Part shown: in pieces, positions 2,989 to 31,664 of the stretch
How the letters are laid out: the number at the start of each line of letters is the position of its first letter
How positions within the stretch are numbered: position 1 is the stretch's first letter
Assembly (NCBI GenBank): GCA_025057155.1
Contig: JANWYD010000002.1
Coordinates: 186,001 to 250,000, forward strand
DNA: 64,000 bases
Source of the DNA: Chloroflexaceae bacterium
GTDB taxonomy: Bacteria; Chloroflexota; Chloroflexia; Chloroflexales; Chloroflexaceae
Direction: 5' to 3'
Position numbers and translations under genes: made by a program
Notes under the pieces: generated by a model
What the model was told of the DNA's origin: nothing
What the model saw: only the letters and a program-made list of their open reading frames with translations
Databases searched by the model: none

Positions 2989-3924
2989 ATGAGTAGAGCC
3001 AAGGCCAAAGACCCTCGCTTCCCCGACTTTTCGTACACTGTTGAGGAGGGCGCCCGCGCCACGCGGGTGCCTGGCGGGCGAACGATTGAGGAATTGGAGC
3101 CCGAGTACAAGATCAAAGGCCGGACCACCTTCAGCGCCCTGTTCAAGACTGACCCCTTTGATTTCTGGGTCGGGCCGTTCTACGTTGGCTTCTGGGGGTT
3201 AGTATCGGTCCTGGGGATCATCTTCGGAACCTATTTCTACATTGACGCAACCATTCTGCGCGGGCCGTACTCTTATCCTCAGAACTTCTTCGCCGGGCGC
3301 ATTGATCCGCCCCCCGCCGAGGTGGGCCTGGCCCTCGTCGGCCCCGGGCAACCGGGCTTTGCCTGGCAGATGACGGTGTTCTTCGCCACCCTGGCCTTCT
3401 TCGGCTGGCTGATGCGCCAGGTTGACATCAGCATGAAGCTGCGGATGGGCTATCACATCGCAGTGGCCTACGGCGTGGTCTTCTCCTCCTGGCTGACGTT
3501 GCAGATCATCCGCCCGATCCTGCTGGGGCAGTGGCACGAAGGCTTCGTGCTGGGCATTATGCCCCATCTGGACTGGGTCTCGAACTTCGGCTACCGCTAT
3601 AACAACTTCTTCTATAATCCCTTCCACGCTCTGGGGATCACCGGGCTCTTTGGCTCCACATGGCTGCTGGCCTGCCACGGCTCGCTGATTCTGAGCGCGG
3701 CGCAGTATCGCGGCCCAGAAGGCGGGGATATCGAGAATATGTTCTTCCGCGATACGATTATTTACTCCATCGGCGAGTCGGGCATCCATCGCCTTGGCTT
3801 CATCTTCGCCTGTGGCGGCGTGCTCTCGGCCAATCTCTGCATCTTGTTCTCGGGCTGGCCGGTGCAGGACTGGGTGAGCTTCTGGAACTTCTGGAATACG
3901 TTGCCCTGGTGGAGTGGAGTGTAG
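2989..3924 (+). CDS. pufL: Photosynthetic reaction centre L subunit
   Basis: A 311-residue integral membrane protein that, with PufM, holds the pigments and quinones of the type-2 reaction centre. The N-terminus has about 45 extra residues before the region aligning with purple-bacterial L. Five membrane segments are visible. Ligand histidines in order: His193 (PHLDWVSN, accessory bacteriochlorophyll), His213 (NPFHALG, special pair), His230 (LACHGSL, iron) and His267 (GIHRLG, iron). Spacings match purple L subunits except for three residues missing between the two iron ligands. GGAAAGG (2973-2979) precedes the ATG. It has its own consensus promoter, and pufM follows after 65 nt. The length fits Chloroflexus PufL. 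No antenna (pufBA) or cytochrome (pufC) genes are adjacent, as in Chloroflexus, where they lie elsewhere. Confidence 0.97.
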   Translation: MSRAKAKDPRFPDFSYTVEEGARATRVPGGRTIEELEPEYKIKGRTTFSALFKTDPFDFWVGPFYVGFWGLVSVLGIIFGTYFYIDATILRGPYSYPQNFFAGRIDPPPAEVGLALVGPGQPGFAWQMTVFFATLAFFGWLMRQVDISMKLRMGYHIAVAYGVVFSSWLTLQIIRPILLGQWHEGFVLGIMPHLDWVSNFGYRYNNFFYNPFHALGITGLFGSTWLLACHGSLILSAAQYRGPEGGDIENMFFRDTIIYSIGESGIHRLGFIFACGGVLSANLCILFSGWPVQDWVSFWNFWNTLPWWSGV

Positions 3925-3940
3925 GGCCGGCCGGAAGCTG

Positions 3941-3968
3941 CAGGCTGAAGGCTACAGGCTGAAGGCTG
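3941..3968 (+). repeat. Two 14-bp tandem repeats between pufL and pufM
   Basis: CAGGCTGAAGGCTA (3941-3954) is followed directly by CAGGCTGAAGGCTG (3955-3968). They fill half of the short pufL-pufM gap, so the spacing of the two genes could change by slippage. Confidence 0.8.
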
Positions 3969-3989
3969 TACACCCTAGAGGGAATGACT

Positions 3990-4910
3990 ATGGCTACGGT
4001 GAATACCACACCCGGCGATCTGGAACTGGGGCCGCGAGATAAGGGGCGCATCGGCAGGCCTATCGAGTTGCCCATCCTGGAGAACTTCGGTCTTGACAGC
4101 CAGATCGGCCCGACCTACATCGGTTTCTGGAACCTGACCGCGTATATTACCGGCGGCCTGTTCTTCTTCATCTGGCTGGTCGTGATGGCTTCCCAGGTGG
4201 GCTGGAACCCGCTCGCCTTCGCCAAGTATTTCTTCGTGCTCCAGATTGACCCGCCGCCGGCTGGATACGGGCTGGGCTGGGCGCCGCTGGAACAGGGCGG
4301 CTGGTGGTTGATTTCCACCTTCTTCCTCACCATTTCCATCTTCGCCTGGTTGATGCACCTGTACACCCGCGCGGTGCGCCTGGGCCTGAAACCCTACCTG
4401 GCCTACGGCTTCACCGGGGCGATTATTCTCTACCTGGTGATCTACATCATCCGCCCGATGTGGATGGGCACCTGGGCCGAGGCCCCGCCCCACGGCCTCA
4501 AGGCGCTGCTTGACTGGACCAATAACGTCAGCGTGCGCTACGGCAACTTCTACTACAACCCGTTCCACATGCTCTCGATCTTCTTCCTGCTCGGTTCGAC
4601 GGTGCTCCTGGCGATGCACGCCGGCACGATATGGGCCCTCGAAAAATACGCCGCCCACGAGGAGTGGCAGGAGATCCAGTCCCCCGGCACGGGCACCGAG
4701 CGCGCGCAACTGTTCTGGCGCTGGTGCATGGGCTTTAATGCCAATGCCTACTCCATCCATCTGTGGGCCTTCTGGTTCGCCTGGTTGTGCGGCGTTACCG
4801 GCGCGATCGGGGTGTTCCTCTCGATGCCCGATTTTGTGAATAACTGGTACCAGTGGGGCGTCGAGGCCGGCATCAACTATCCGGATACGCTGCCGCCGAC
4901 GTTGCCCTGA
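3990..4910 (+). CDS. pufM: Photosynthetic reaction centre M subunit
   Basis: A 306-residue partner of PufL. The start is the ATG at 3990 (MATVNTTPGDLE), 7 nt after AGAGGG; the ATG at 3984 lies too close to that site. His193 (NPFHML) ligates the special pair; AMHAGT and YSIHLW supply iron-ligand histidines, and the Glu of ERAQLF is the usual iron carboxylate. Twenty residues before His193, where purple bacteria have the His of the M-side accessory bacteriochlorophyll, this protein has Leu173 (ALLDWTNN). The same substitution is known in Chloroflexus, whose centre has three bacteriochlorophylls and three bacteriopheophytins. It is cotranscribed with pufL and ends at a strong terminator. Confidence 0.97.
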   Translation: MATVNTTPGDLELGPRDKGRIGRPIELPILENFGLDSQIGPTYIGFWNLTAYITGGLFFFIWLVVMASQVGWNPLAFAKYFFVLQIDPPPAGYGLGWAPLEQGGWWLISTFFLTISIFAWLMHLYTRAVRLGLKPYLAYGFTGAIILYLVIYIIRPMWMGTWAEAPPHGLKALLDWTNNVSVRYGNFYYNPFHMLSIFFLLGSTVLLAMHAGTIWALEKYAAHEEWQEIQSPGTGTERAQLFWRWCMGFNANAYSIHLWAFWFAWLCGVTGAIGVFLSMPDFVNNWYQWGVEAGINYPDTLPPTLP

Positions 4911-20271: not shown

Positions 20272-22359
20272 ATGGCCCTCGCGCATGACTACCTGGAGCG
20301 CGTCTACGCTGGCGTGCTCGGCAAGTGCATCGGCGTCTACCTCGGGCGGCCGGTGGAGCAGTGGACCCACGAGCGCATCAGCGCCGAGGTGGGGGAGATT
20401 GGCGGGTATGTGCATGCGCGCTTCGGGCTGCCCCTGGTGGTCACCGACGACGATATCACCGGGACCTTCACCTTTCTGCGGGCCTTGCCCGACCATGGCA
20501 ACGACCCGGCGCTCACCCCGGCGCAGATCGGCGCCGCCTGGCTGAACTACCTGATCGAGGGGCGCACGGGCATCTGGTGGGGCGGCCTGGGCGTGTCCAC
20601 CGAGCACACCGCCTACCTGCGCCTCAAGAGCGGCATTCCCGCGCCGGCCAGCGGCTCCGCCGCGCTCAACGGGCGGATTGTCGCCGAGCAGATCGGCGGA
20701 CGGATCTTCGCGGATGGCTGGGCCATGGTCGCGCCGGGCGATCCCGACCTGGCCGCCGACCTGGCCGGGCGCGCCGCATCGGTGAGCCACGACGGCGAGG
20801 CGGTGCACGCGGCGCGGGCGCTGGCGGCGATGGAGGCCCTGGCCTTCGTCGAGGGGAGCATCCCCCAGTTGCTCGACGCGGCGATCGCCCGCATCCCCGC
20901 CGATTGCGCCACCGCCCGGCTGATCATCGAACTGCGCGCCCTGCGCGCCCGCGAAGCCGACTGGCGCGCGGCGCGGCGCCTGATCGCCGAACGCTACGCC
21001 TACGACCGCTACCGGGGCGGCTGCCACGTGGTTCCCAACCAGGCCCTCCTGCTCCTGGGCCTGCTGTGGGGCGACGGAGACTTCGGGCGTTCGCTGGGCA
21101 TCGTGGTGAGCGCCGGGCTCGACACCGACTGCAACGCCGGCAACCTCGGATGCCTGCTGGGGATCCGCGGCGGCCTGGCCGCCCTCGACGCCGGCCCCTA
21201 CGACTGGCGCAGCCCCATCGCCGACCGGCTCTTCCTGCCCGGCGCCGACGGGGGGCGGGCCATCAGCGACGCCCTGACCGAGGCCGTGCGCGTCGCGAAC
21301 ATTGGCCGCGCCCTGCACGGCCTGCCGCCGCTGGCGCCAAAGGGCGGGGCGCAGTTCCACTTCACGCTGCCGGGGTCGGTGCAGGGCTTTCGTGGCGCGG
21401 GGGCCGAGGTGCGCAACCTTGTCGGCCCGGAGGGAGCGCGGCAACTCGCTGTCAGCGCGACCCTCCCGGCGGGAGGGACGGCCCGCGCGGCGACCCCCGT
21501 GTTCATCCTGCCCGAGGAACTGGCGATGCCCGGCTACCCCCTGGTGGCCTCGCCCCGGCTCTACCCCGGCCAGGAGGTGTACGCCCGGCTCATCGCCGAC
21601 GCGACGAACGCCGGGCCGGTCGTCACGCGTCTGAGCGCCCGCGTCTACGGCCCGCAGGATGCCCTGGAGGCGCTGAGCGGCCCGCCCGTGTCCCTGGCCC
21701 CCGGCGCGGAGGTCGAACTCCACTGGCGGGTGCCCGACACCGCCGGGGCGCCGCTGGCCGACATCGGGGTCGAGGTGCAGGCGACGGTCTCGGGCCCTGC
21801 CGGCCTGCGCCTCGACCGGCTCGGCTGGCGGGGCGCGCCGGAGGTGACCTTCACCCGCCCGCCCTTTGCGGGCAGCGCCTGGCGGCGGGCCTGGGTCAAC
21901 GCGGTGGACCAGTGGGACGATGAGCGGCCCGAAGCCTTCTGGCTGACGCAGAACGCCGGGCGGGGCCTGCTCATCCAGGGCGCCGAGGAGTGGCGGGACT
22001 ACGAGGTGCAGGCGGTGATCACCCCGTCGCTCTGCGCGGCGGCGGGCATCGCCGCGCGGGTGGGCGGCCTGCGGCGCTTCTACGCCCTGCTGCTGCGGGC
22101 GGGAGGGCGCATCGCCCTGCTGCGGGCCCTCGACGCCGACACGCTGCTGGCCGAGGCGCCATTCGTCTGGCAGCAGCACCGGAGCTACGCCCTGCGCCTG
22201 GCGGTCGAAGGGCCGTGGCTGCGGGCCTTCGTGGACGATGCGCCCATCTTCGCGATGCGTGACCCCGGCGCCCCGCTGAGGGGCGGGGCGGCGGCCCTGG
22301 TGGTGGAGGAGGGGCACATGCACTGCGCGGCGGTACGGGTGGAGGCGGGCGGGGCGTAG
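20272..22359 (+). CDS. ADP-ribosylglycohydrolase-family protein with C-terminal beta domains
   Basis: A 695-residue protein; AAAGGAG precedes the ATG. Residues 1 to about 350 form an ADP-ribosylglycohydrolase-type all-alpha domain: GVLGKCIGVYLGRPVE at the N-terminus, TDDDITGTFT (first metal-binding aspartates), and GLDTDCNAGNLGCLLG (the second D-x-D pair). Both metal sites are intact. Residues about 370-500 look like an immunoglobulin-like beta module, and about 500-695 like a LamG/concanavalin-type beta-sandwich. That extension is unusual for this family, whose members are mostly about 300-350 residues. With rbsK next door, release and phosphorylation of ribose from a ribosyl compound is a reasonable inference. 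No signal peptide is present. Confidence 0.8.
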   Translation: MALAHDYLERVYAGVLGKCIGVYLGRPVEQWTHERISAEVGEIGGYVHARFGLPLVVTDDDITGTFTFLRALPDHGNDPALTPAQIGAAWLNYLIEGRTGIWWGGLGVSTEHTAYLRLKSGIPAPASGSAALNGRIVAEQIGGRIFADGWAMVAPGDPDLAADLAGRAASVSHDGEAVHAARALAAMEALAFVEGSIPQLLDAAIARIPADCATARLIIELRALRAREADWRAARRLIAERYAYDRYRGGCHVVPNQALLLLGLLWGDGDFGRSLGIVVSAGLDTDCNAGNLGCLLGIRGGLAALDAGPYDWRSPIADRLFLPGADGGRAISDALTEAVRVANIGRALHGLPPLAPKGGAQFHFTLPGSVQGFRGAGAEVRNLVGPEGARQLAVSATLPAGGTARAATPVFILPEELAMPGYPLVASPRLYPGQEVYARLIADATNAGPVVTRLSARVYGPQDALEALSGPPVSLAPGAEVELHWRVPDTAGAPLADIGVEVQATVSGPAGLRLDRLGWRGAPEVTFTRPPFAGSAWRRAWVNAVDQWDDERPEAFWLTQNAGRGLLIQGAEEWRDYEVQAVITPSLCAAAGIAARVGGLRRFYALLLRAGGRIALLRALDADTLLAEAPFVWQQHRSYALRLAVEGPWLRAFVDDAPIFAMRDPGAPLRGGAAALVVEEGHMHCAAVRVEAGGA

Positions 22360-22372
22360 GGAGACCCGACAG

Positions 22373-22689
22373 GCAACTGTTCACACTTCTCCCGGGAGCG
22401 AGGGCTTCCAGCCCTCGTTGTGGCTTCGAGGGCGAGACGCCCGCGTCCCAGGCTCTCCTGTTACCCCAGGTGTGAACAGTATTCCCGACAGGTCTCATGC
22501 ATCATCGAGGGGGCTGCGCACCGCGCCGGGGCAACTGTTCACACTTCTCCTGGGAGCGAGGGCTTCCAGCCCTCGTTGTGGCTTCGAGGGCAAGACGCCC
22601 GCGCTCCCAGGCTCTCCTGTTACCCCAGGTGTGAACAGTATTCCCGACAGGTCTCATTCGTCATCGAGGGGGCTACGCACCGCGCCGGG
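22373..22689. repeat. Tandem duplication (158/159 bp) of a 105-bp element with 11-bp terminal inverted repeats
   Basis: Unit 1 is 22373-22530 and unit 2 is 22531-22689, nearly identical. Each contains a segment bounded by ACTGTTCACAC and GTGTGAACAGT (22376-22480 and 22534-22639), a perfect 11-bp inverted repeat, so the core looks like a small non-autonomous element. Each unit also includes about 35 bp of the 3' end of the integrase pseudogene, showing that the duplication happened after the integrase was present. Confidence 0.85.
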
Positions 22690-23158
22690 CCCACGGCACA
22701 GGACGTGAGTGTAGATCATCGTGGTCTGCACATCCTTGTGGCCCAGAAGCTCCTGCACGGTGCGAATAGCATAGCCGGCCTCAATGGTCTGTAAAGTAAG
22801 TTTCCTGGCCTTTCCGCCCCCCTCCCAGCCTCCCCCCGTTGGGGGGAGGGGCCGGACTCCCTCCCCCGGCGGGGGAGGGTTGGGGAGGGGGTGGGGGTGT
22901 AGCGAAAGACTTTGTTTACAGACTACTCAAGCAAATGCGTGGCGAAGCTATGGCGAAACGTGTGGCAGGTGACGCGCTTCTGGATGCCGACCTGCTTTCG
23001 CCTGATCCCATCTCGCGCGGATGGCGCAGGGTATGAAAGCGGATAAACCGGCGCACCCATCCGATGTACGCCTCTTCGGTGCGAAGCGAGTAGTGTTTGC
23101 GACGCAGCGCGCCGCGCACCTGATCGAGCAGTCCGGGCGGATGGCCGGAAGAGGACAT
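22654..23158 (-). pseudogene. Integron-type tyrosine recombinase, deleted and MITE-disrupted
   Basis: Read on the minus strand from ATG 23158: about 50 N-terminal residues ([20 protein letters not shown], then [19 protein letters not shown]) of an IntI/XerC-like recombinase. Then comes a jump and frame change to [16 protein letters not shown] (box II H-x-x-R). A 141-bp insertion follows, then [16 protein letters not shown] and [20 protein letters not shown] to a TGA at 22654-22656. About 200 residues, including the first catalytic Arg region, are missing. The HLLE/AGYA joint is restored exactly if the insertion and one 5-bp duplication are removed. The layout (integrase facing away from the cassettes) is that of an integron. 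It cannot be active; cassettes would be frozen unless another integrase acts. Confidence 0.88.
22785..22925. mobile_element. 141-bp MITE inserted in the integrase gene
   Basis: Ends TGGTCTGTAAA (22785-22795) and TTTACAGACTA (22915-22925) are inverted repeats with one mismatch. It is flanked by a 5-bp target duplication CTCAA (22780-22784 and 22926-22930). The body is C- and G-rich with internal hairpins and has no ORF. Removing it and one CTCAA rejoins the integrase reading frame. A segment of it recurs at 889-935. Confidence 0.88.
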
Positions 23159-23268
23159 TTGGAACCCCTTTACATCGGATATAGAGTGACCTATACTCAT
23201 CACAACTCATGTACCGCGCAACGCACACAAACGATGCGGCTTCGTCGTACGTGAGTTTCAGGAGAGAA

Positions 23269-23495
23269 GGTTATCCGTCTATCGGGGCATGTGCGGGAAT
23301 AGGCGGACGAAGAGCGGTCGAACACCGTACAGGGCGGGATTAGGCGGACGGTTGTCCACCTAATATGGCGCAGGCCGGCATAGGCGGACGAAGGGCAGCC
23401 GAACACCGTACAGGGCGGGATTAGGCGGAAAGTTGTCCGTCTAATGTAGTACAGGCTGGAATAGGTGGAGGCGGTCGGTCTACTTCATGTTATGC
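23269..23495. repeat. 81-bp tandem repeats, putative attI region
   Basis: Between the integrase and the first cassette lie two full copies (23301-23381, 23382-23462) and partial copies on both sides of an 81-bp unit. Each unit contains a hairpin (TTAGGCGGAC..GTCCACCTAA and variants). At 23489-23495 GTTATGC is the core sequence expected at an attI/cassette junction, since the attC of cassette 1 ends with the same GTTATGC (25803-25809). Repeated integrase-binding sites are known near attI; that these are such sites is inference. Confidence 0.6.
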
Positions 23496-23574
23496 CGCCT
23501 AATATCGTGGCATAAGCATCCTTTCTGGCAGCGCACAGTTCAGTGAATGCTCCATCTCAAAGGAGAAACTGTCT

Positions 23575-25725
23575 ATGAGTGAAATAATCCATGCTGACCT
23601 GTTTCTCGTCATTCCTCAAGCATTACCAACCTTATTCGCTCACATGATTAAAACAGTGAGTGACGATGCTTCTGCGATAGGCGGAAAATTAGCATATCGC
23701 TTGCGGAACACATTCGGCGGGAATTGGGTATGGTGTGGTGGTCAGATTATTACGGATAAGCGCCTTCAAGATGACAAAATTAAAGAATTTCTAAAACAAC
23801 TATGGACAGAAGAACCATTCAAGGATGTACAGAGCATTACTTTTAATACAACCTGGGAACCATCGGCCTGGGAACTAGGTGAATTTGCGGCTCGTGGTTT
23901 ACTTGCAAACTACCAAACAGAGATTCGGAGAGTGCTTGAACCCAAAAAACAGCATTTCGGCAAAATCCGAGTTGACCGCGATTATGCTTTGCGCGGTTGG
24001 GCTGTCAACAATCAACCAGCGGTTTCTATAACTGTGTCGTCCAATATTTTTCATACTCAGTTGCTTCACGAGTTTGCTGCTACCTTGAAAAGCCCGCAAG
24101 AACTTATCGGGATGATGGTAGCTGTGACAGCAAAGGACTTAAAAGGAACAATTGTCGAGATTACTGGCAATGTTCGAGAAATGCGTGAATGGCTTCTCAG
24201 CAAATCAAGCGATGAGACAACACGTAATCTGATTAGCCGCGCCCCTGATGATGAACTGACCGTCAAAATTGAAACGCGTACAAGTCAGTATATTTATATC
24301 GCTAGCATGTTACGCCCGATCGTACGAATGGGCGATCTCAAGAAATTTGGAGTGGATCCGCGCCAAGTTTCCAAAGCCTTACGGCTTGACCCTCTCACCA
24401 GGTACAATCTTGTACGTGAAATTGCTGCTATTGGCAAAAAGCACGGAATTCTGGGGGACGGTTTTGAGTCGAGAGCAAGACCGCAATTATTTTTGAGAGC
24501 AAATGATGTAGCCTTTGTACCCGAATTGCGTGTTGGTTGCAACCAAACTCACCGCGAAGGGCAACGCATTTATCGAAGTCTAGAACAACATGGTGTATTT
24601 AGACGTTCAAGCGCGTTTCCTGACAAAGAACACCCTATAAGAATTGGGATAGTGAACGCATCGTCACAAGTTGCACAGCAAGCATTGATGACCTTTCTAC
24701 AAAAACTTAAGGCGGCACTGGAGAGATTGAATTTTTCTATTCAATCGGTTGAAGTCAATGGGCAACGCCAACAAAAGGTCGAAAGACTTTCAAGAGCAGA
24801 CTTGGAAAATGCAATAAATCGCCTAGAAATGGCAAAACCTGATATTATCCTTGCCCTGTTTCCTGGAAGCGCACATCATGATGATGAATGGGGAGACGAC
24901 GAAGAAGATAGTATGTATCATGTTTTCAAATCATTGACAATGCGATGTGGCATCCCAAGCCAAGTTGTTTATGAAGATACATTCTCTGAACAATATGCGA
25001 TGGACAATATTGTGCTGGGGATATTGGCAAAGACAAAGAATATACCATTTGTTTTGGCGAAACCTCTGCCTTACGCTGATATTGTCGTTGGGATTGATAT
25101 TGCTCGTAGAGCGAAACAACGGCTGTCGGGAACGGTGAATGCAACCGCTATTGCAAGAATATATTTTAGCGACGGCCAATTTCTAAGATATATCATCCAT
25201 GATGCGCCGATCGAAGGGGAAACAATACCAGGTGGTATTCTGCGTAGCCTTTTTCCTCTTAAAGAATTTCAAGGTAAACGCGTTGTGATTCATCGCGATG
25301 GCTATTTTCGTGGGGGAGAAAAGTCTGCGTTGAAAGAGTGGGCGAAACAAATTGGAACAGAGTTTCATTTAGTCGAAGTAATCAAATCTGGGACACCCCG
25401 TCTTTATCAAAGTACAGTAACTTCCACCCTTGATAGACCGTCAAAGGGAACTGCATTGAAAATAAGCGATACGGAAGTATTTCTGGTTTCTTCACTACCT
25501 CCTTTCAAAGGTAGCACGCCGCGTCCACTTCAAATCAGGACAGAACCGACTTTCCCAATTGAAAACGCTATTCATTCTGTACTGTCACTAACGCTCTTAC
25601 ATTATGGTTCTGTTAGAGAGCCGCGTTTGCCAGTGACGATTCATTACAGCGACAAAATTGCAGAGTTGTCATTACTCGGCATCAAACCCAAAGATCTGGA
25701 AGGAGACGTACCTTTCTGGTTGTAA
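23575..25725 (+). CDS. Prokaryotic Argonaute (long type, catalytic residues present), integron cassette 1
   Basis: A 716-residue protein with AAAGGAG 9 nt before the ATG. The length fits long pAgo with N, PAZ-like, MID and PIWI regions. MID: GIPSQVVYEDTF (Gln463) and NIVLGILAKTKN (Lys486) match the guide 5'-end pocket. PIWI: IVVGIDIARR (Asp508), IEGETIPGG (Glu549, least certain), RVVIHRDGYFRGGE (Asp575) and LPVTIHYSDKIAEL (Asp693) give a D-E-D-D tetrad, so nuclease activity is expected. Such proteins use small DNA or RNA guides against plasmids and phages. The gene fills cassette 1 and is followed 8 bases later by an attC site. It is much AT-richer than its surroundings, a sign of transfer. 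No separate partner gene is in the same cassette. Confidence 0.93.
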   Translation: MSEIIHADLFLVIPQALPTLFAHMIKTVSDDASAIGGKLAYRLRNTFGGNWVWCGGQIITDKRLQDDKIKEFLKQLWTEEPFKDVQSITFNTTWEPSAWELGEFAARGLLANYQTEIRRVLEPKKQHFGKIRVDRDYALRGWAVNNQPAVSITVSSNIFHTQLLHEFAATLKSPQELIGMMVAVTAKDLKGTIVEITGNVREMREWLLSKSSDETTRNLISRAPDDELTVKIETRTSQYIYIASMLRPIVRMGDLKKFGVDPRQVSKALRLDPLTRYNLVREIAAIGKKHGILGDGFESRARPQLFLRANDVAFVPELRVGCNQTHREGQRIYRSLEQHGVFRRSSAFPDKEHPIRIGIVNASSQVAQQALMTFLQKLKAALERLNFSIQSVEVNGQRQQKVERLSRADLENAINRLEMAKPDIILALFPGSAHHDDEWGDDEEDSMYHVFKSLTMRCGIPSQVVYEDTFSEQYAMDNIVLGILAKTKNIPFVLAKPLPYADIVVGIDIARRAKQRLSGTVNATAIARIYFSDGQFLRYIIHDAPIEGETIPGGILRSLFPLKEFQGKRVVIHRDGYFRGGEKSALKEWAKQIGTEFHLVEVIKSGTPRLYQSTVTSTLDRPSKGTALKISDTEVFLVSSLPPFKGSTPRPLQIRTEPTFPIENAIHSVLSLTLLHYGSVREPRLPVTIHYSDKIAELSLLGIKPKDLEGDVPFWL

Positions 25726-25733
25726 AAGGAATA

Positions 25734-25813
25734 GGCGGCATAACATGCGTTTCCAGCCGACAGCGCTCCGCTTCGCTCCGCGCTGCGGCTGAAACGCCAG
25801 CCGTTATGCGGCC
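25734..25813 (+). other. attC site of cassette 1
   Basis: GGCGGCATAAC at the left and GTTATGCGGCC at the right are the simple core sites (GCATAAC/GTTATGC fully complementary). Inside, GCGTTTCCAGCCGACAGCGC pairs with GCGCTGCGGCTGAAACGC except for two extra bases on one arm. Such extrahelical bases are what integron integrases use to recognise the folded strand. Length about 80 bp. Confidence 0.88.
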
Positions 25814-25863
25814 TACGTTTCAAAAATACCAATGTACACTTAAGAGCATCAGAGAGGGAGAGG

Positions 25864-26661
25864 ATGAGTAGACCGAGCAACGGTTATCTAGATCTGTTAA
25901 GTAAAATAGCTGCTTTTCTGGGAACTATTACTCTGTTTGTAGGATTCATTGGCACAGTCCTTGAATGGGGCAGTGAGCCTCAAAGTCTGTTAATCGCCTC
26001 TGTGGTGGGATATGTAGTCCTCGCAGGTGGGGTTTTTTGATTTGCCTTCAAGTCTTCAGATAGCAGTCCCAAGTGGCGGTGGGGAAGCTTAGCTGCTTTG
26101 TACGTAATCACGATTTCCTTCTTTTTCTGGCTAGGCACCCAGATTATAGTTCTGCCGGCCAGCAGTTGGCCCTCGAACTTGATGACCTATTACGATTTTG
26201 AGACTGATGCCGACTTGAACGGGTGGCCTGAAGGAGCGCAGAGATCAACTGAGCATGCCTTTAGTGGTCAGTACGCGCTGAAAGCTATACTGCCTGTCCA
26301 GGCAGGAGGACAGACATTCTTCTCCTTCCGCTGGACTCAGGAGTTCACAGCGGACGTGGTTGTGGGACAAGTTTACTGGCCCGAGAATGAAGAGGTGGAC
26401 GTTGTCTGGGCACAGGTTTGTGTTCCAATGGGGGAGAACTGGAACTGTCAAGGTATTAGGGGATACCGTGGTGGCTGGAATACATTTGTCTTGGATTTGT
26501 GTGCATTGTCAGTAGGGACTCCTCCACAACCTTTGTGCCAACTTGTGTTATCTAATGGATTTCTGTTCCAAGGAGGACTGTCTGGAGCCCCGGGCACCAG
26601 TGTTACAACTATGCCTATGTATATAGATGCAATTCAGATTTATCGCGATGGCGAGGAATAG
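25864..26661 (+). pseudogene. Cassette 2: membrane protein with one in-frame TGA
   Basis: ATG 25864, behind GGGAGAGG, opens a 58-codon frame (MSRPSNGYLDLLSKIAAF..) that stops at TGA 26038-26040. The same frame then continues without a shift to 26661, giving 265 positions in total. The TGA interrupts a hydrophobic stretch (GGVF-stop-FAFKSS). Membrane helices are at about 13-34, 44-62 and 80-98. The remaining 165 residues look like an exported beta-rich domain (YYDFETDADLNGWPEGAQRS.., a carbohydrate-binding-like pattern). Either one nonsense mutation (TGG to TGA fits) or a cassette from a donor that reads TGA as an amino acid. Function unknown. GTG/ATG restarts after the stop have no ribosome site. 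Confidence 0.7.
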
Positions 26662-26683
26662 CCAAAAGAGTTCAAGTTGAGAG

Positions 26684-26819
26684 AGGCCGCATAACAAGCG
26701 CATCCACCCGACCGCGCTACCGCGCACACAAATCGGCGGCCTCACGCGCTTGCAATCGGTCTTGTAGAGGCAGTGGTTTCACGCACTCGCGCGGCGGGTG
26801 ATGCGCAGGGCGTTAGGCG
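26684..26819 (+). other. attC site of cassette 2
   Basis: Left core GGCCGCATAAC (ends 26694) and right core GTTAGGC (26812-26818). Inside, GCGCATCCACCCGACCGCGC pairs with GCGCGGCGGGTGATGCGC except for two extra bases, the same extrahelical pattern as in cassette 1. About 135 bp, with a long variable loop. Confidence 0.85.
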
Positions 26820-26867
26820 CAATTCTCGCCTGAACGGACTTGGCGGTTTCGTTTCGGAGTCTTACTA

Positions 26868-27635
26868 ATGGTTGCTACCGCGACGATGACGTTTGCAGAA
26901 TACAAGAACATCGAGCATCCAGCGCCTTATATTTTGCAACTGCCAAGCGAAAGCGCCGAGTTCCTTTACTACGGTGCAAACCACATTTATGATCCTGCTG
27001 ACCCGATGTTTGATGATATCGAGTTGCGATTCAAAGGATTCCATCCCGACTTTGCCCTGGTAGAAGGCGGTGTCATCGAGACATTGCTGCCGCGAGACGA
27101 AATCATCAGACAAGAAGGCGAGCGCGGATTCTTGTGTCGCCTTTGCAGCCTGCATAGCGTTCCAGTTGCCAATTTAGAACCCTCTTTTGATGAAGAAGTG
27201 CAATATCTACTTAAGACTTTTACCGGAGAACAATTATTGCTCTTCTACTGTGTGCGGCAGATTGTGCAGTATCGCTATATGGAAGCGAAACGCCTTACAA
27301 AGAATACATGAGCAATTTTTGCAAGGTGGATTGCCGGTAAACTACTTCTTGAATTGCCGCTCGCTCCGTTGGAATGTCTCTCCGCTCAATATAGACAAGC
27401 ATTCGGCTGAGATTTGGATTGGCAGACGCTTAGCGACGATGTTGGAAGCCCTCTGATTCAAGGTGGATTGACGAACGAGATTTCGCGTCAGACCGGTTAT
27501 TTCCGTGACGCATCGCACGTGTCCAATGTAATCCGTGCTGTAAAGAAGCATCGAAGAGTTTTTGCCATTGCAGGTGCAAGTCATGTGGTTATGCAGGAAA
27601 GAGCGTTGCGTGCGGCGCTTAAAAACTGCGCCTAA
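26868..27635 (+). pseudogene. Cassette 3: TraB/GumN-like protein with two in-frame TGA codons
   Basis: ATG 26868 runs 147 codons to TGA 27309-27311. The same frame goes on through a second TGA (27408-27410) to TAA 27633-27635, 255 positions in all and the usual length for a TraB/GumN-like protein. N-terminal FLYYGANHIYDPADPMFDDIE and DFALVEGG, and C-terminal SHVSNVIRAVKKHRRVFAIAGASHV, match the two conserved ends of that family, so both halves belong to one protein. No frameshift is needed. The segments around the stops (KNT-stop-AIFARW and AFG-stop-DLDWQ) would be plausible with Trp or Gly. As annotated with the standard code it is broken. Families of this type are linked to peptide or haem handling, but the role here is unknown. 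Confidence 0.65.
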
Positions 27636-27703
27636 CACGTGTTTCCACCTGACGCCGCTCCGCTGCGCTTCGCGGACGGCTGAAACGCAGGCCGTTGGGC
27701 GGC
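27628..27703 (+). other. attC site of cassette 3
   Basis: Left core GCGCCTAAC, overlapping the TAA stop of the TraB-like frame, and right core GTTGGGCGG (27694-27702). GTGTTTCCACCTGACGCCGC faces GCGGACGGCTGAAACGC as the folded arms. About 76 bp. The right core with its flank (CGTTGGGCGGCTCTGTCAACC) is repeated 70 bp further on. Confidence 0.82.
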
Positions 27704-27739
27704 TCTGTCAACCATGGTGCGAGTGCGTGCGGCGGGCGC

Positions 27740-27783
27740 GAGTCTGGCGCGGCTGACGCTCCCGTTGGGCGGCTCTGTCAACC
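27740..27783 (+). other. Extra right half of an attC site
   Basis: GGCTGACGCTCCCGTTGGGC followed by GGCTCTGTCAACC duplicates the right end of the previous attC (27692-27712 and 27762-27782). No gene lies between the two right ends, so this is a relic of a deleted cassette. 27784-27902 holds no gene that I can support. Confidence 0.55.
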
Positions 27784-27902
27784 GCTGGCTACTCCCTTGA
27801 AACCCTTCACTCACGTGGTCGTTCTACCATCACGTCCTAACGTGTTTGATATTCCGAGCGTTCTGTTATAACTGCGTATCTTCATCTTCCATCAAAAAAC
27901 AA

Positions 27903-28908
27903 TAGACTTTATCGAGATTTACGTAGCGTATGTCCAAGGAACATGGCGGAGCCGCAGATTGTGTGAGCTGCACGCGATTGCCGTCACCGTATCGCGGATA
28001 TGGTCCGCCCGGAGCCGGAGGTCTTCTTTCAGGATGACGCACCGTTTGACGGCGCTGATGATGTGCGCGATCCGCACGCGCTGGCGCGTAATCTGGCGAT
28101 TATCGCTTTTTTGTGCGTGGTCAATCGCTGTCCTTTGGCTTTCTTGTGCGGCATCGTGATCGTGACGCCAGCGAGCGCGAAGCCGAGCTAGCCCAACTCC
28201 CGCAGCAGTTCGCTGCCCGGCGGCAACGGATACGGCGTGGCGTCGGCAATGGGTTTTTCGCGATAGGCGCCTTCATACGTATCCCTGAGAAACCACATGC
28301 GCGCCGTCCGGTCGGCCAGGAGCACGTTCGTTACCGGGCGGTCGTGCGTCTTGCCGCTCCAGTAGTCTTTCTGTTCACCTGGGTCTTGGGGGCGCAGGAT
28401 GGGTCGCTCGGCGCCGTCGTGAAAAAGGGGACTCCGGCGCGGTCGCGTCGGTAAGACCAATCCGCGCTTTCAGCTCCTCGAGCGCGCGACCGGGCGCGAG
28501 GTCGGCGACGCACAACGCGGTTTGGAGCACCGGGATCAGCATATTCGGCCAGGTGCTGACGCTCGACCGGATCAGGCCAAAGGTCGCGCCGTGATAGGCT
28601 TGGCGCGGTGCATGTTTGAGATAACTCAGCACGAACAGCGAGCGATCTGCGGGCGTTGGCAGCGGACAATTGGTATAGACGCTGAAGCTGCGAGTCGTGC
28701 GCCGCCGGCCGGTCATGGTCTATTGCTGCATATGCTCCTGGAATGCCGTTTCAAAGGGCGCCATGAGTGCGGTAAACTCGGTGTCCGACAGACTGGTCAA
28801 CTCGCACACGCGGGCGTCCTGTCCAGCAATGGTGTGATAACGTAGCATGGGTTCGCTCCTCTTCGGTGTCGCAGGAGCGAATCACACCACAAATCTCGAT
28901 AAGGTCTA
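27903..28908. mobile_element. IS5-family insertion sequence (inactive)
   Basis: Terminal inverted repeats TAGACTTTATCGAGATTT (27903-27920) and AAATCTCGATAAGGTCTA (28891-28908) match with one difference. A TA dinucleotide is present at both outer ends and may be the target duplication. The element is 1006 bp and is filled by one minus-strand transposase pseudogene. It sits inside the cassette array behind cassette 3. Confidence 0.85.
27919..28848 (-). pseudogene. IS5-family (HARBI1-like DDE) transposase, degenerate
   Basis: Read on the minus strand from ATG 28848 (MLRYHTIAGQDARVCELTSL). A TAG at 28730-28732 interrupts it after 39 codons. Then come FVLSYLKHAPRQAYHGATFG and PNMLIPVLQTALCV. After a frameshift: LFHDGAERPILRPQDPGEQ (first Asp of the DDE triad) and DYWSGKTHDRPVTNVLLADR. 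Another stop and frame changes follow, then GVTITMPHKKAKGQ and ARQRVRIAHIISAVKRCVIL up to TAA at 27919-27921. This order is that of the IS5 ISL2/IS1031-like transposases. With at least two stops and two frameshifts it cannot be active. Confidence 0.85.
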
Positions 28909-29032
28909 CTAATCTCTGTTGGCGCCAATAATACCACAATCATCGTTCTTGATGAGGGCAAGTTCCGCCAGCTAGCTTGCTTTATTGCTTGGCTACGCAG
29001 AAATCACTTAAACGACGAAAGGAGAATAGAGC

Positions 29033-29515
29033 ATGAGTGTGCCAGAATTGATCGTTGGTTTTGTTTTAGGCATCATAGTAAATCTTATAACAGATCCTGT
29101 CAAAAGAACTATTCAGTTACGCAGAGAGAGACTTTCGCGAAGTTTCGCCAATAAAAATCTGAAATATCTTCAAGCAGAATACGAACGCATTAAAAGGTTG
29201 CGAAATGAGCCGTATTTTTTCTATGCAACATTTGCTGGCCAAACACTACATGCGCTTAGCAGTCTTTTTCTAATCGTTCTCATCTTATCGTTGTCATTTG
29301 TTCTGGCGATATTAGTTTCAGTTCAACTAAATCTTGGACTTTATCTCTACGCCTTCGTCGCTGCAATTGGTGTCCTGTTCGGATATGCCGGATTTCGTAC
29401 AGTCTCTGAAAGCACACTCGATATCTACCGAGTAACTAATTTTGACACCTACGAGCCAGAGATTCGCAAAAGAATCGAAGAACTGAAAAAGCAGCTAGGG
29501 ATTGGTCAACCATAA
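29033..29515 (+). CDS. Small membrane protein, last cassette gene
   Basis: A 160-residue protein with AAAGGAG 9 nt before ATG 29033. One N-terminal hydrophobic segment (about 4-21), then a basic amphipathic region (KRTIQLRRERLSRSFANKN) with a coiled-coil tendency, then two strong membrane helices (about 76-97 and 102-122) and a charged C-terminal helix (EIRKRIEELKKQLG). AT-rich like the other cassette genes and followed by half an attC site. I do not recognise the family. Membrane proteins of this kind are common in cassettes and some serve as abortive-infection effectors, which here is only a possibility. Confidence 0.75.
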   Translation: MSVPELIVGFVLGIIVNLITDPVKRTIQLRRERLSRSFANKNLKYLQAEYERIKRLRNEPYFFYATFAGQTLHALSSLFLIVLILSLSFVLAILVSVQLNLGLYLYAFVAAIGVLFGYAGFRTVSESTLDIYRVTNFDTYEPEIRKRIEELKKQLGIGQP

Positions 29516-29585
29516 TCAGACTCTGATGTTCTTGGTTATGATGCCACCTTCCTCTGCCCGAAATGTCATCTTGCACCTCTCCCAT

Positions 29586-29611
29586 CAGTCTAACAAAGCG
29601 TGCAGCCGACG
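29586..29611 (+). other. Left half of an attC site (array end)
   Basis: GTCTAACAAAGCGTGCAGCCG has the left core (TCTAAC) and start of the left arm of a typical attC. The matching right arm and GTTRRRY core are absent, so the array is cut off here. Confidence 0.6.
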
Positions 29612-29666
29612 GCTCATCTGAAGCTAGTGTCAAAGGTATGGTAGACTTCCTTCCAGCAGGGTTGGC

Positions 29667-30123
29667 ATGGCGCACTGGAGGGATAGGATGATCGCCCTTC
29701 CGATTGGCGAGTTGATGGACGAGGCGGCCAGTCTGGACTGGCAGGAGCGCCGCATGTATCCAGCAGGTCTGTGTTGTCCTCACTGCAGGAGTCGTAGCTG
29801 CCGCCTCTTTCGGCGCAGGCAAGCCTTTCCGGGCTATCGCTGCCGCGCGTGCGACAGTGCGTTTACCATCCTGACGGGCGCCGCCTTTGAAAAGAGCCGC
29901 CAGAAGCCTTCTCCCACGGTTCTGTTCCTGCGCGGGGTCGCCCAGGGTGAAACAACGGCCCGCTTGTCCCCCGAGTTGAACCGCTCCTCCAAGCAAGCCC
30001 TGACCCTGCGCCACCGGCTGTAAAACAATGTGAACGAAACGGCGCCGCTGAACCTGATGGCAGGCGCGCAGTGTGAGGCCGACGAAGGCTACCGACGGGC
30101 GGGGGAAAAGTGGAGAAACTGAT
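29667..30123 (+). pseudogene. IS1595-like transposase, N-terminal remnant
   Basis: A zinc-ribbon start (CCPHCRSRSC, 18 residues, then YRCRACDSAFTILTGAAFEKS) and SPELNRSSKQALTLRHRL are those of IS1595-family transposases. TAA at 30021-30023 replaces a likely Gln codon, and the frame goes on with NNVNETAPLNLMAGAQCEADE, where the Asp of EADE would be the first catalytic residue. It then breaks off near 30123, where a YdeI-like fragment starts. The rest of the transposase is absent. Confidence 0.75.
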
Positions 30124-30418
30124 TGCCGCCGGCCTGATGACGCCAGCCGGGCTTGCCAGGGTCGAATCCGCCAGGCGCGACGGTTCCTGGTCGCGACTCG
30201 ACGCTGTGGAGGCGCTTAAGATTCCTCAGGACCTTGAACAGGCTCTCGCGGCTTATCCCAACGCGAGACGACACTTCGACACGTTTCCCCGATCAGTCAA
30301 GCGAGGCATCCTGGAGTGGATCGTGAATGCAAAGAAGCCGGAGACGCGGGCGAAGCGCGTTGCCGAGACCGCGCAACGGGCTGAGAAGAACCAGCGTGCC
30401 GACCAGTGGCGGCAGTAG
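30110..30418 (+). pseudogene. YdeI/OmpD-associated-family protein, 5'-truncated
   Basis: About 102 residues with the family's C-terminal half: KLIAAGLMTPAGLARVESA, ALKIPQDLEQAL, FPRSVKRGILEWIVNAKKPE and TRAKRVAETAQRAEKNQRA. The N-terminal 90 or so residues usual for the family are missing, and the frame emerges directly from the IS1595-like remnant, so an insertion or deletion has removed the start. No ribosome site is seen before GTG 30110. Up to 30675 nothing else coding is recognised. Confidence 0.7.
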
Positions 30419-30675
30419 GTGCGGGCGGCTGAACAAGCGGCTGAACTCGAACAGCGCGGGCCGGTGATGCACGCCGAGTACACCGTTGAAACCGTTGCCG
30501 CTCCTGCCGAACCAGGCGCAGCAGCAGATGCCGGGGCATGATCCGTTATCTTGAGCGTGGCTCCGGGTTGCCCTACCGCTGCGCCCGACCCCGGCCTGAT
30601 CCCCGGTCGCCGGGGTCCGTCCATCCGGGCCGAAGGACAGGCTGTGGACGCTTTGCGCGCGCTCGCAGGGGGCAA

Positions 30676-31248
30676 TCACGTATTGAACACTTGCAGGTAG
30701 ACGCGCGCCAGGCCCTCCGCCGCTTCGATGACCGCCAGGTTGTAGTGCTTTGACCCTACTTGCTGATAGAGGCCGCTGAAGTTGCCCGCTGCGTTGCCGG
30801 CCACAGGCGGCGCCCACCAGGACGCCGCGCCGGCCAGGGGGGGATCGGGCGAAAGGAACGGGGAGTAGTTCCGTTCCAGCGGCGCGGTAACGCCCAGGCT
30901 GGCAAGATAGGCCGCCACGTCCTGCCGCGGGACATCGAAGCGGGCGATCACCTGCGTATCCAGCGCCGCCTCGCCGAGCAGATGGATGTTGCTGGCGCTG
31001 GCGGGGAAGGGCTGGCCGATAAAGGCGAGCGCTTGCTCCTGGTTGAGGGGTTGGGATAGCTCTTGCAGGGGAGAACGATCCGAATGAACGGGAGTGTTCA
31101 TCATCGAAGTATTCTCACAAGCCGTGACAAGCAACAGGCTCAGCAGCAACACTATGAAGCCGGCCTGGGCGCCTGGCGTAGGTCTTGCCAGCCGGGCAGG
31201 CGCGCTGGAGCTTCGATGAGCCTGCTGCGACGCTCTGGAATGGATCAT
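30676..31248 (-). CDS. Hypothetical lipoprotein
   Basis: A 190-residue protein starting at ATG 31248 with AGGAGG 6 nt upstream. A long N-region is followed by a hydrophobic stretch and the lipobox LVTAC (Cys44), so it should be anchored on the outside of the membrane. The mature part has no motif I recognise; it is rich in Pro, Ala and aromatic residues (PPLAGAASWWAPPVAGN). No neighbour suggests a role. It borders the integron scar, but its base composition is like the chromosome. Confidence 0.7.
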   Translation of the reverse strand: MIHSRASQQAHRSSSAPARLARPTPGAQAGFIVLLLSLLLVTACENTSMMNTPVHSDRSPLQELSQPLNQEQALAFIGQPFPASASNIHLLGEAALDTQVIARFDVPRQDVAAYLASLGVTAPLERNYSPFLSPDPPLAGAASWWAPPVAGNAAGNFSGLYQQVGSKHYNLAVIEAAEGLARVYLQVFNT

Positions 31249-31564
31249 CGTCTGCCTCCTGGCCCCGGGGCAGGAGCGTCAGCCGGGCCTGCCGACGGGT
31301 CGTAGCGGTGGAGCGTTGCAAGCGAAAAGCAACCATAGGGACGCGATCGGGTCTGAGCCTCGCCGTGACCGCGGCCGTCTGGCGATAGCCCGGCCCGCCG
31401 ACGTCATCATACCAGTTTGGGAGCCTCTCCTGGCCGGGATAGCGGTCGAAGCGCCAGCCAGACTGCAACTGGAACTGATGAGTCTGTGAACCGGGTTTTT
31501 TGCTAAACCTTCCCCCTCCCCAACCCTACATCCTGCCTCTTAGATTACAAAATATACAAATATA

Positions 31565-31594
31565 TTTACAGTGATGGCAAGGTTGAATTATACT
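31565..31594 (+). promoter_or_regulatory. Promoter of the CAP-domain gene
   Basis: TTTACA (31565-31570), 18 bp, TATACT (31589-31594) in a locally AT-rich stretch, about 70 nt before the start codon at 31665. Confidence 0.7.
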
Positions 31595-31664
31595 TCGCCA
31601 GAACCACGTGATGCGCGATGCTTTCAAGATCTTGATTTTTATTACACTCAAAGGAGCGCACCTG

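Follow-up and report, generated by a model that had tools for sequence, protein, structure and literature searches.

The window, the whole stretch of 64,000 nucleotides analysed here, contains a complete long prokaryotic Argonaute gene that, with a probability of about 0.86, occupies the first cassette position of an old integron in the chromosome; its movement, expression and cutting activity are presumed. The gene, the attC site that belongs to it, the attI crossover and the other genes that occupy the same crossover in sister genomes can be read directly from the assemblies. Comparisons with other assemblies showed related Argonaute cassettes in other arrays, both in other Chloroflexota and, apparently decayed, in an assembly of Acidobacteriota.

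The Argonaute gene and its cassette

The 716-codon open reading frame at 23575-25725 (plus strand), which the first-pass annotation had taken for an Argonaute, was assigned by Pfam, PADLOC, solved relatives and alignments, and its product ends in the C-terminal L716. It matches Pfam PF02171 (PIWI) with an E of 2e-18 (67 bits, cut-off 28.9) and the PADLOC pAgo model PDLC02396 with 917.8 bits over residues 5-716. The best solved sequence relatives are CtAgo (9iad_A, E 1.7e-96) and then the Aquifex Argonaute (AaAgo, 1yvu, E 3.8e-39). Residues D508, E549, D575 and D693 align with the conserved acidic residues of solved Argonautes, including the tetrads of CtAgo and AaAgo, and are invariant in all five rows of alignment A1 and all nine of A2; from the Argonaute family we take them to be the catalytic tetrad, as had been proposed. 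The refuting outcome named beforehand, a lack of PIWI match at these residues, was thus not borne out. Y448, K452, Q463 and K486, which presumably form a MID pocket of the YK type for a 5'-phosphorylated guide and bear out the motifs noticed earlier, are likewise invariant in 9/9 rows of A2, together with the last residue L716.

A structure predicted from nine sequences has a mean pLDDT of 74, with residues 674-716, D693 among them, below 50. Its best fold match is 9iad (Chroococcidiopsis thermalis Argonaute, E 1.5e-49), followed by other long Argonautes. The predicted structure and CtAgo share 742 aligned columns with a TM of 0.63 (for a model of pLDDT 74) and 28% identity, and Pfam PAZ has no match at E 1. 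By its sequence the 716-residue protein is a long prokaryotic Argonaute, probably of the long-A type, with all four predicted catalytic residues intact. By analogy it may be a guide-dependent defence nuclease: like its relatives it would load short 5'-phosphorylated guides and cut complementary invading DNA of plasmids and phages.

The whole Argonaute cassette (23490-25803, plus strand, 2314 bp) starts one base past the attI crossover G and ends on the crossover G of its own attC. This site (attC1, 25736-25811, plus strand), previously placed at 25734-25813 and called complete, matches the attC covariance model R1 with an E of 8.6e-23 as a member of the training set, and folded alone it beats 200 of 200 shuffles (z -4.85 for the bottom strand, -5.03 for the top strand). 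Two further cassettes follow on the plus strand. Cassette 2 (25804-26812), with ends complementary at 12/12 positions, holds the ORF 26098-26661 and attC2 (26687-26820, plus strand; R1 E 1.8e-12, outside the training set); cassette 3 (26813-27694), with ends complementary at 11/12, holds the ORF 26868-27311 and attC3 (27628-27702, plus strand; R1 E 1e-17, a training member). Neither ORF has a match in Pfam, NCBIfam or PADLOC. Folded alone, attC2 and attC3 are unremarkable (z -1.81 and -1.92, with 9 and 10 of 200 shuffles equal or better). R1 was built from 11 attC sites, attC1 and attC3 among them, and was preferred over pattern finders, of which the strict one misses sites with a GTTAGCC core and the looser one gave likely false matches in control loci while also overlooking genuine sites. 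The model also yields chance-level matches, three of them in the window (E 0.28-0.40), far from the array. A 22-bp attC end is duplicated at 27692 and 27762, and a degraded IS-like stretch (27889-28922), about 1 kb between 32-nt inverted arms, lies just past attC3.

Free cassettes are circular and are opened at attC between G and TT, and the first bases of an inserted cassette derive from its own attC. The 5' end of a cassette is therefore expected to pair better with the outer attC arm of that same cassette than with those of others. The 5' end of the Argonaute cassette is complementary to the end of its own attC, perfectly over 13 nt, and scores 12/12 in a table of 24 cassettes. This table covers seven stretches (the window, L016, L017, L018, L100, L101 and L051), with uniform model coordinates and poor cassettes kept. 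Its mean own-end match is 10.1 of 12 bases, compared with 7.6 for other pairings, and none of 20000 permutations reaches the sum observed. In three of these cassettes, one in L018 and two in L100, the own ends match at only 6-7 of 12 positions. The GC content of the Argonaute cassette is 44.4%, compared with 65.9% for the window outside 22300-31600, in agreement with the earlier description of an AT-rich gene in a GC-rich chromosome.

The integration platform in sister genomes

The attI region (23266-23489, plus strand) contains diverged 81-bp repeats and ends at the crossover G at 23489; it is common to two sister genomes, G222 and G403, up to 23498-23500. The GTTATGC at 23489, formerly described as attI-like, is the attI crossover: sister homology stops at 23498 (G403) and 23500 (G222), right after CATG/TTA. 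The repeats before attI (23266-23460), common to both sisters, contain palindromic stretches.

The conserved chromosomal neighbour of the platform is a gene of 695 codons (20272-22359, plus strand), whose product we guess by eye to be ADP-ribosylglycohydrolase-like. Its homologues are 98, 91 and 86% identical in three of four other genomes of the genus. An integrase adjoins this gene in G222 (485 bits, intact) and in G403 (399 bits, with a stop), both over the TIGR02249 cut-off of 265, and none was seen by eye beside it in G094. Past the crossover, G222 carries a restriction-modification pair, an AccI-family endonuclease and an Eco57I-like methyltransferase. No attC is seen after these genes, since the contig stops within the methyltransferase gene, and the whole genome has one weak match (E 0.005). 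In G403, the crossover is followed by a 374-residue protein without a family match, then an attC and then an HNH protein. None of the four other genus genomes examined has the Argonaute. One attI is followed by three different first inserts in the window, G222 and G403, at least two of them of defence type, and the sister genomes amount to a natural experiment. A further genus mate (L101, G370:C114) has an array of nine attC sites, in which an 884-residue BsuBI/PstI restriction-modification protein is encoded between two attC sites.

The integrase gene that the first-pass annotation had placed upstream in the opposite orientation proved to be a broken relic. The remnant (22663-23158, minus strand), recognized from TIGR02249 pieces and a three-frame reading and compared with the intact 324-residue IntI of L049, comprises the first ~50 residues, a large internal deletion and the last ~64 residues, which are broken by an insertion. 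About 620 bp of the middle are missing compared with both sisters. The insertion is an element of ~140 bp (22785-22925, no strand assigned) with inverted ends and a 5-bp target duplication (CTCAA), identified by repeat analysis and comparison, that interrupts the end of the integrase relic. It is present in G403 and absent in G222, which indicates that the insertion of the element preceded the deletion in the integrase. An intact integrase in the window is ruled out by the loss of ~620 bp, the insertion and the TIGR02249 pieces, all of which are under the cut-off. Nor was an integron integrase found in the window genome at E 1e-25, where the other tyrosine recombinase frames (C25, C14) score at most 63 bits with TIGR02249. 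At E 1e-3 this model has matches in every one of 14 control genomes, all below the cut-off, and at E 1e-25 in one of the 14; because weak matches occur in all control genomes, only those over the cut-off were counted as integrases. Two copies of a direct repeat of ~160 bp lie between the 695-codon gene and the relic (22372-22694); by eye, about one copy is present in G403 and most of the repeat is missing in G222.

Given a functional IntI in the cell, the cassette would have left its array in circular form by way of its folded single-stranded attC and entered at attI. The Argonaute gene at position 1 could be transcribed from a candidate cassette promoter, TTTACA-17-TATACT (23169-23197, plus strand), found by consensus match; the search returned one hit compared with 0.5 expected in shuffles, and by eye similar hexamers are present in G403 and G222. 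Since the window integrase is broken, its decay has probably locked the cassette in first position, and the Argonaute cassette is probably immobile at present as a fixed first gene.

Related Argonaute cassettes, transfer and neighbours

A scan of a species collection for relatives of the window Argonaute gave 12 loci out of 209 pattern stretches. The closest, in Candidatus Roseilinea NK_OTU-006 (L016), is 87.3-88% identical and has attC on both sides (E 3.1e-21 and 1.6e-17, both in the training set). It is followed by a groundwater Chloroflexi MAG (L017, 70% identity; attC on both sides, E 9.9e-9 and 2e-5, outside training) and a Blastocatellia MAG of the Acidobacteriota (L018, 61%; attC on both sides, weak, E 0.0022 and 0.0017, outside training). 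The attC pair of L018 adjoins the gene ends in a locus with no other attC match, and its cassette ends match at only 6/12; the pair is weak, its call rests partly on its position by the gene ends, and the locus appears to be a decayed form of the Argonaute cassette. Altogether attI or attC flanks both sides in four of the four Argonaute genes that are at least 60% identical (window, L016, L017 and L018). The three closest homologues are found at other places, each between attC sites (weak in L018), and not always at one chromosomal place without attC, the outcome set beforehand as refuting. L017 and L018 are labelled MAGs, the L016 gene lies 1.7 kb from a contig end, and the window genome is in 189 contigs.

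Comparison of the window with Roseilinea showed 87.3% identity for the Argonaute and 58.7% for rpoB, indicating that the Argonaute moved horizontally. Roseilinea is placed with L017 and L023 by rpoB (100/100) but with the window by the Argonaute (98/96); both trees have 12 rows, a midpoint root and some long branches. This conflict answers the suggested comparison of Argonaute and host phylogenies. Similarity between the window and L016 leaders begins at the crossover base (z 6.0), and the preceding 85 nt show none (z -1.1). The leaders of L016 and L018 are also alike (z 6.7), and the window leader is weakly similar to those of L017 and L018 (z 2.3 and 2.2). The identity values and the leader similarity that begins at the crossover support the earlier idea of a pAgo spreading as a single-gene cassette. 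Reaction-centre genes are present in both hosts, the window organism and Roseilinea; those in the window agree with the phototrophic host assumed before. The window has two such genes of the L/M family (3178-4874), ~18 kb from the integron.

The dN/dS of the window Argonaute is 0.07 compared with L016 (synonymous distance 0.93) and 0.21 compared with L018, with synonymous sites saturated in the comparison with L017; these values indicate that both close lineages kept the Argonaute under constraint. They bear on the unlikely alternative of an ancient acquisition, after which the integron died and the Argonaute gene fell silent or began to decay. The integrase remnant, the ~140-bp insertion shared with G403, the short ORFs without family match as the only content of cassettes 2 and 3 and the degraded IS-like stretch past attC3 fit such a fossil. 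However, the Argonaute ORF is full-length, all the catalytic and guide-pocket residues examined are present, promoter hexamers precede the gene, and the value of 0.07 against Roseilinea, though mostly informative on the past, points to a maintained protein.

The neighbours of the related genes also bear on function. Upstream of the Argonaute in L016 are an EcoRV-family nuclease (PF09233, 2e-93; its start is off the contig) and a D12 methyltransferase, and further downstream is a GyrI-like/Cass2 cassette. In L018 an ORF named methyltransferase-like by eye ends at the attC preceding the Argonaute. The Roseilinea integrase contig has an intact IntI (476 bits, cut-off 265) adjoined by a NotI-family nuclease and a D12 methyltransferase, after which comes an attC. 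The distribution is patchy: an Argonaute relative occurs in six of 400 genomes of the phylum (E 1e-10) and in 13 of 396 of the class (E 1e-60). Some long Argonautes act in replication, chromosome separation or gene control, and such a role for the window protein, with integron carriage incidental, would have this precedent. It is nevertheless quite improbable, considering the restriction-modification neighbours in L016, G222 and the Roseilinea integrase contig, the methyltransferase-like ORF in L018 and the patchy distribution.

The covariance model found no attC at 21 more distant Argonaute loci (at most 47% identity): L019-L027 (nine), a Nostoc plasmid stretch (L043) and L088-L098 (11, with 30-47% identity and flanks of at most 1.5 kb). 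The attC link is therefore limited to the close clade of four members. Among the loci of the scans, L099 is the same place as L023, L017 equals L008, and L009-L013 repeat L024-L027. Three attC-model matches in L009 and L011 (E 0.33-0.91), two of them inside the Argonaute gene of L011, were treated as chance, and three in the genome of L019 (E 2e-4 to 0.0016) are at coordinates that could not be linked to its Argonaute. Viral contigs gave no confirmed Argonaute relative from 173 pattern stretches, and the 37 records from the plasmid collection are all of distant Argonautes, at most 32% identical. The distant Argonautes without detected attC, found in cyanobacteria, Thermogemmatispora and others, with one on a Nostoc plasmid, would suit an ordinary chromosomal Argonaute that arrived by plasmid or island and merely lies near an integron, its flanking hairpins being chance, but the attI or attC on both sides of all four genes at 60% identity or more, the own-end complementarity and the loss of sister homology at the attI crossover make this very improbable, with the comparison opposing it for the window, L016 and L017 and in part for L018.

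Precedents and a short-Argonaute cassette

IntI genes were listed in Chloroflexi in 2008 (PMC2426708). Anti-phage systems, type II restriction among them, have been described between attC sites in chromosomal and mobile integrons (Darracq 2025, Kieffer 2025 and Getz 2025, according to the parts consulted of PMC12409362 and PMC12444791). The window cassette resembles these in having a putative defence gene between integron sites, whereas no Argonaute is named in an integron in those parts; it also differs in carrying a single predicted guided nuclease on 2.3 kb from Chloroflexota with relatives in other classes. The 2018 Argonaute census, which gives the MID motif types (the YK type among them), lacks the word integron in its main text (PMC6299218). 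An Argonaute described as an integron cassette appeared neither among the matches listed nor in the parts consulted of PMC12409362, PMC12444791, PMC12259885, PMC10924106 and PMC6299218. Within these sources, integron carriage of anti-phage genes is known and an Argonaute cassette was not found described. With the window cassette, the storage of phage defence in integrons, as found in 2025, would extend to guided nucleases, in photosynthetic Chloroflexota. Argonautes are patchy in prokaryotes; a single gene bounded by attC is a concrete candidate vehicle for their spread, and the related cassette copies in distantly related bacteria show a route for the spread of Argonaute-type immunity.

The assembly of the window contains another Argonaute between attC sites. 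At L100:138-2905 (G000:C36), a cassette bounded by attC sites (E 2.1e-8 and 2.9e-17; ends 11/12) encodes a MID-PIWI protein and, next to it, an HNH nuclease with a fused APAZ-like region. The contig was assigned to the window organism by assembly membership, the contamination of the assembly being 0.8%. The pair matches both chains of PDB 9om4 (E 1.2e-66 for the HNH protein, 3.2e-80 for the MID-PIWI protein), a short Argonaute with an HNH-APAZ partner that we take to be SPARHA. The pair differs from that system in its flanking attC sites and in its Argonaute, for which there is no single intact frame: the MID-PIWI protein is read from two overlapping ORFs (1477-2100 and 2078-2827), as would be the case for a pseudogene, for a recoded gene or after an error in sequencing. 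Homologues of the second MID-PIWI piece occur in six other genomes among 400 Chloroflexota (E 1e-25), and attC was found near none of these six loci.

It is conceivable, as a tentative extension, that integrons are the native vehicle of this long-Argonaute lineage, which, carried as a cassette, would have diversified across classes and phyla. The arrays might then serve as exchangeable immune libraries that also include a second, distant class of Argonaute, the short type joined with an HNH protein in a single cassette. The long-Argonaute nuclease itself may be adapted to single-stranded DNA, the form in which both cassettes and foreign DNA enter. The array with the short Argonaute also contains restriction-modification genes (L100:4047-5962), an N6/N4 methyltransferase and a NotI-like nuclease in two frames.
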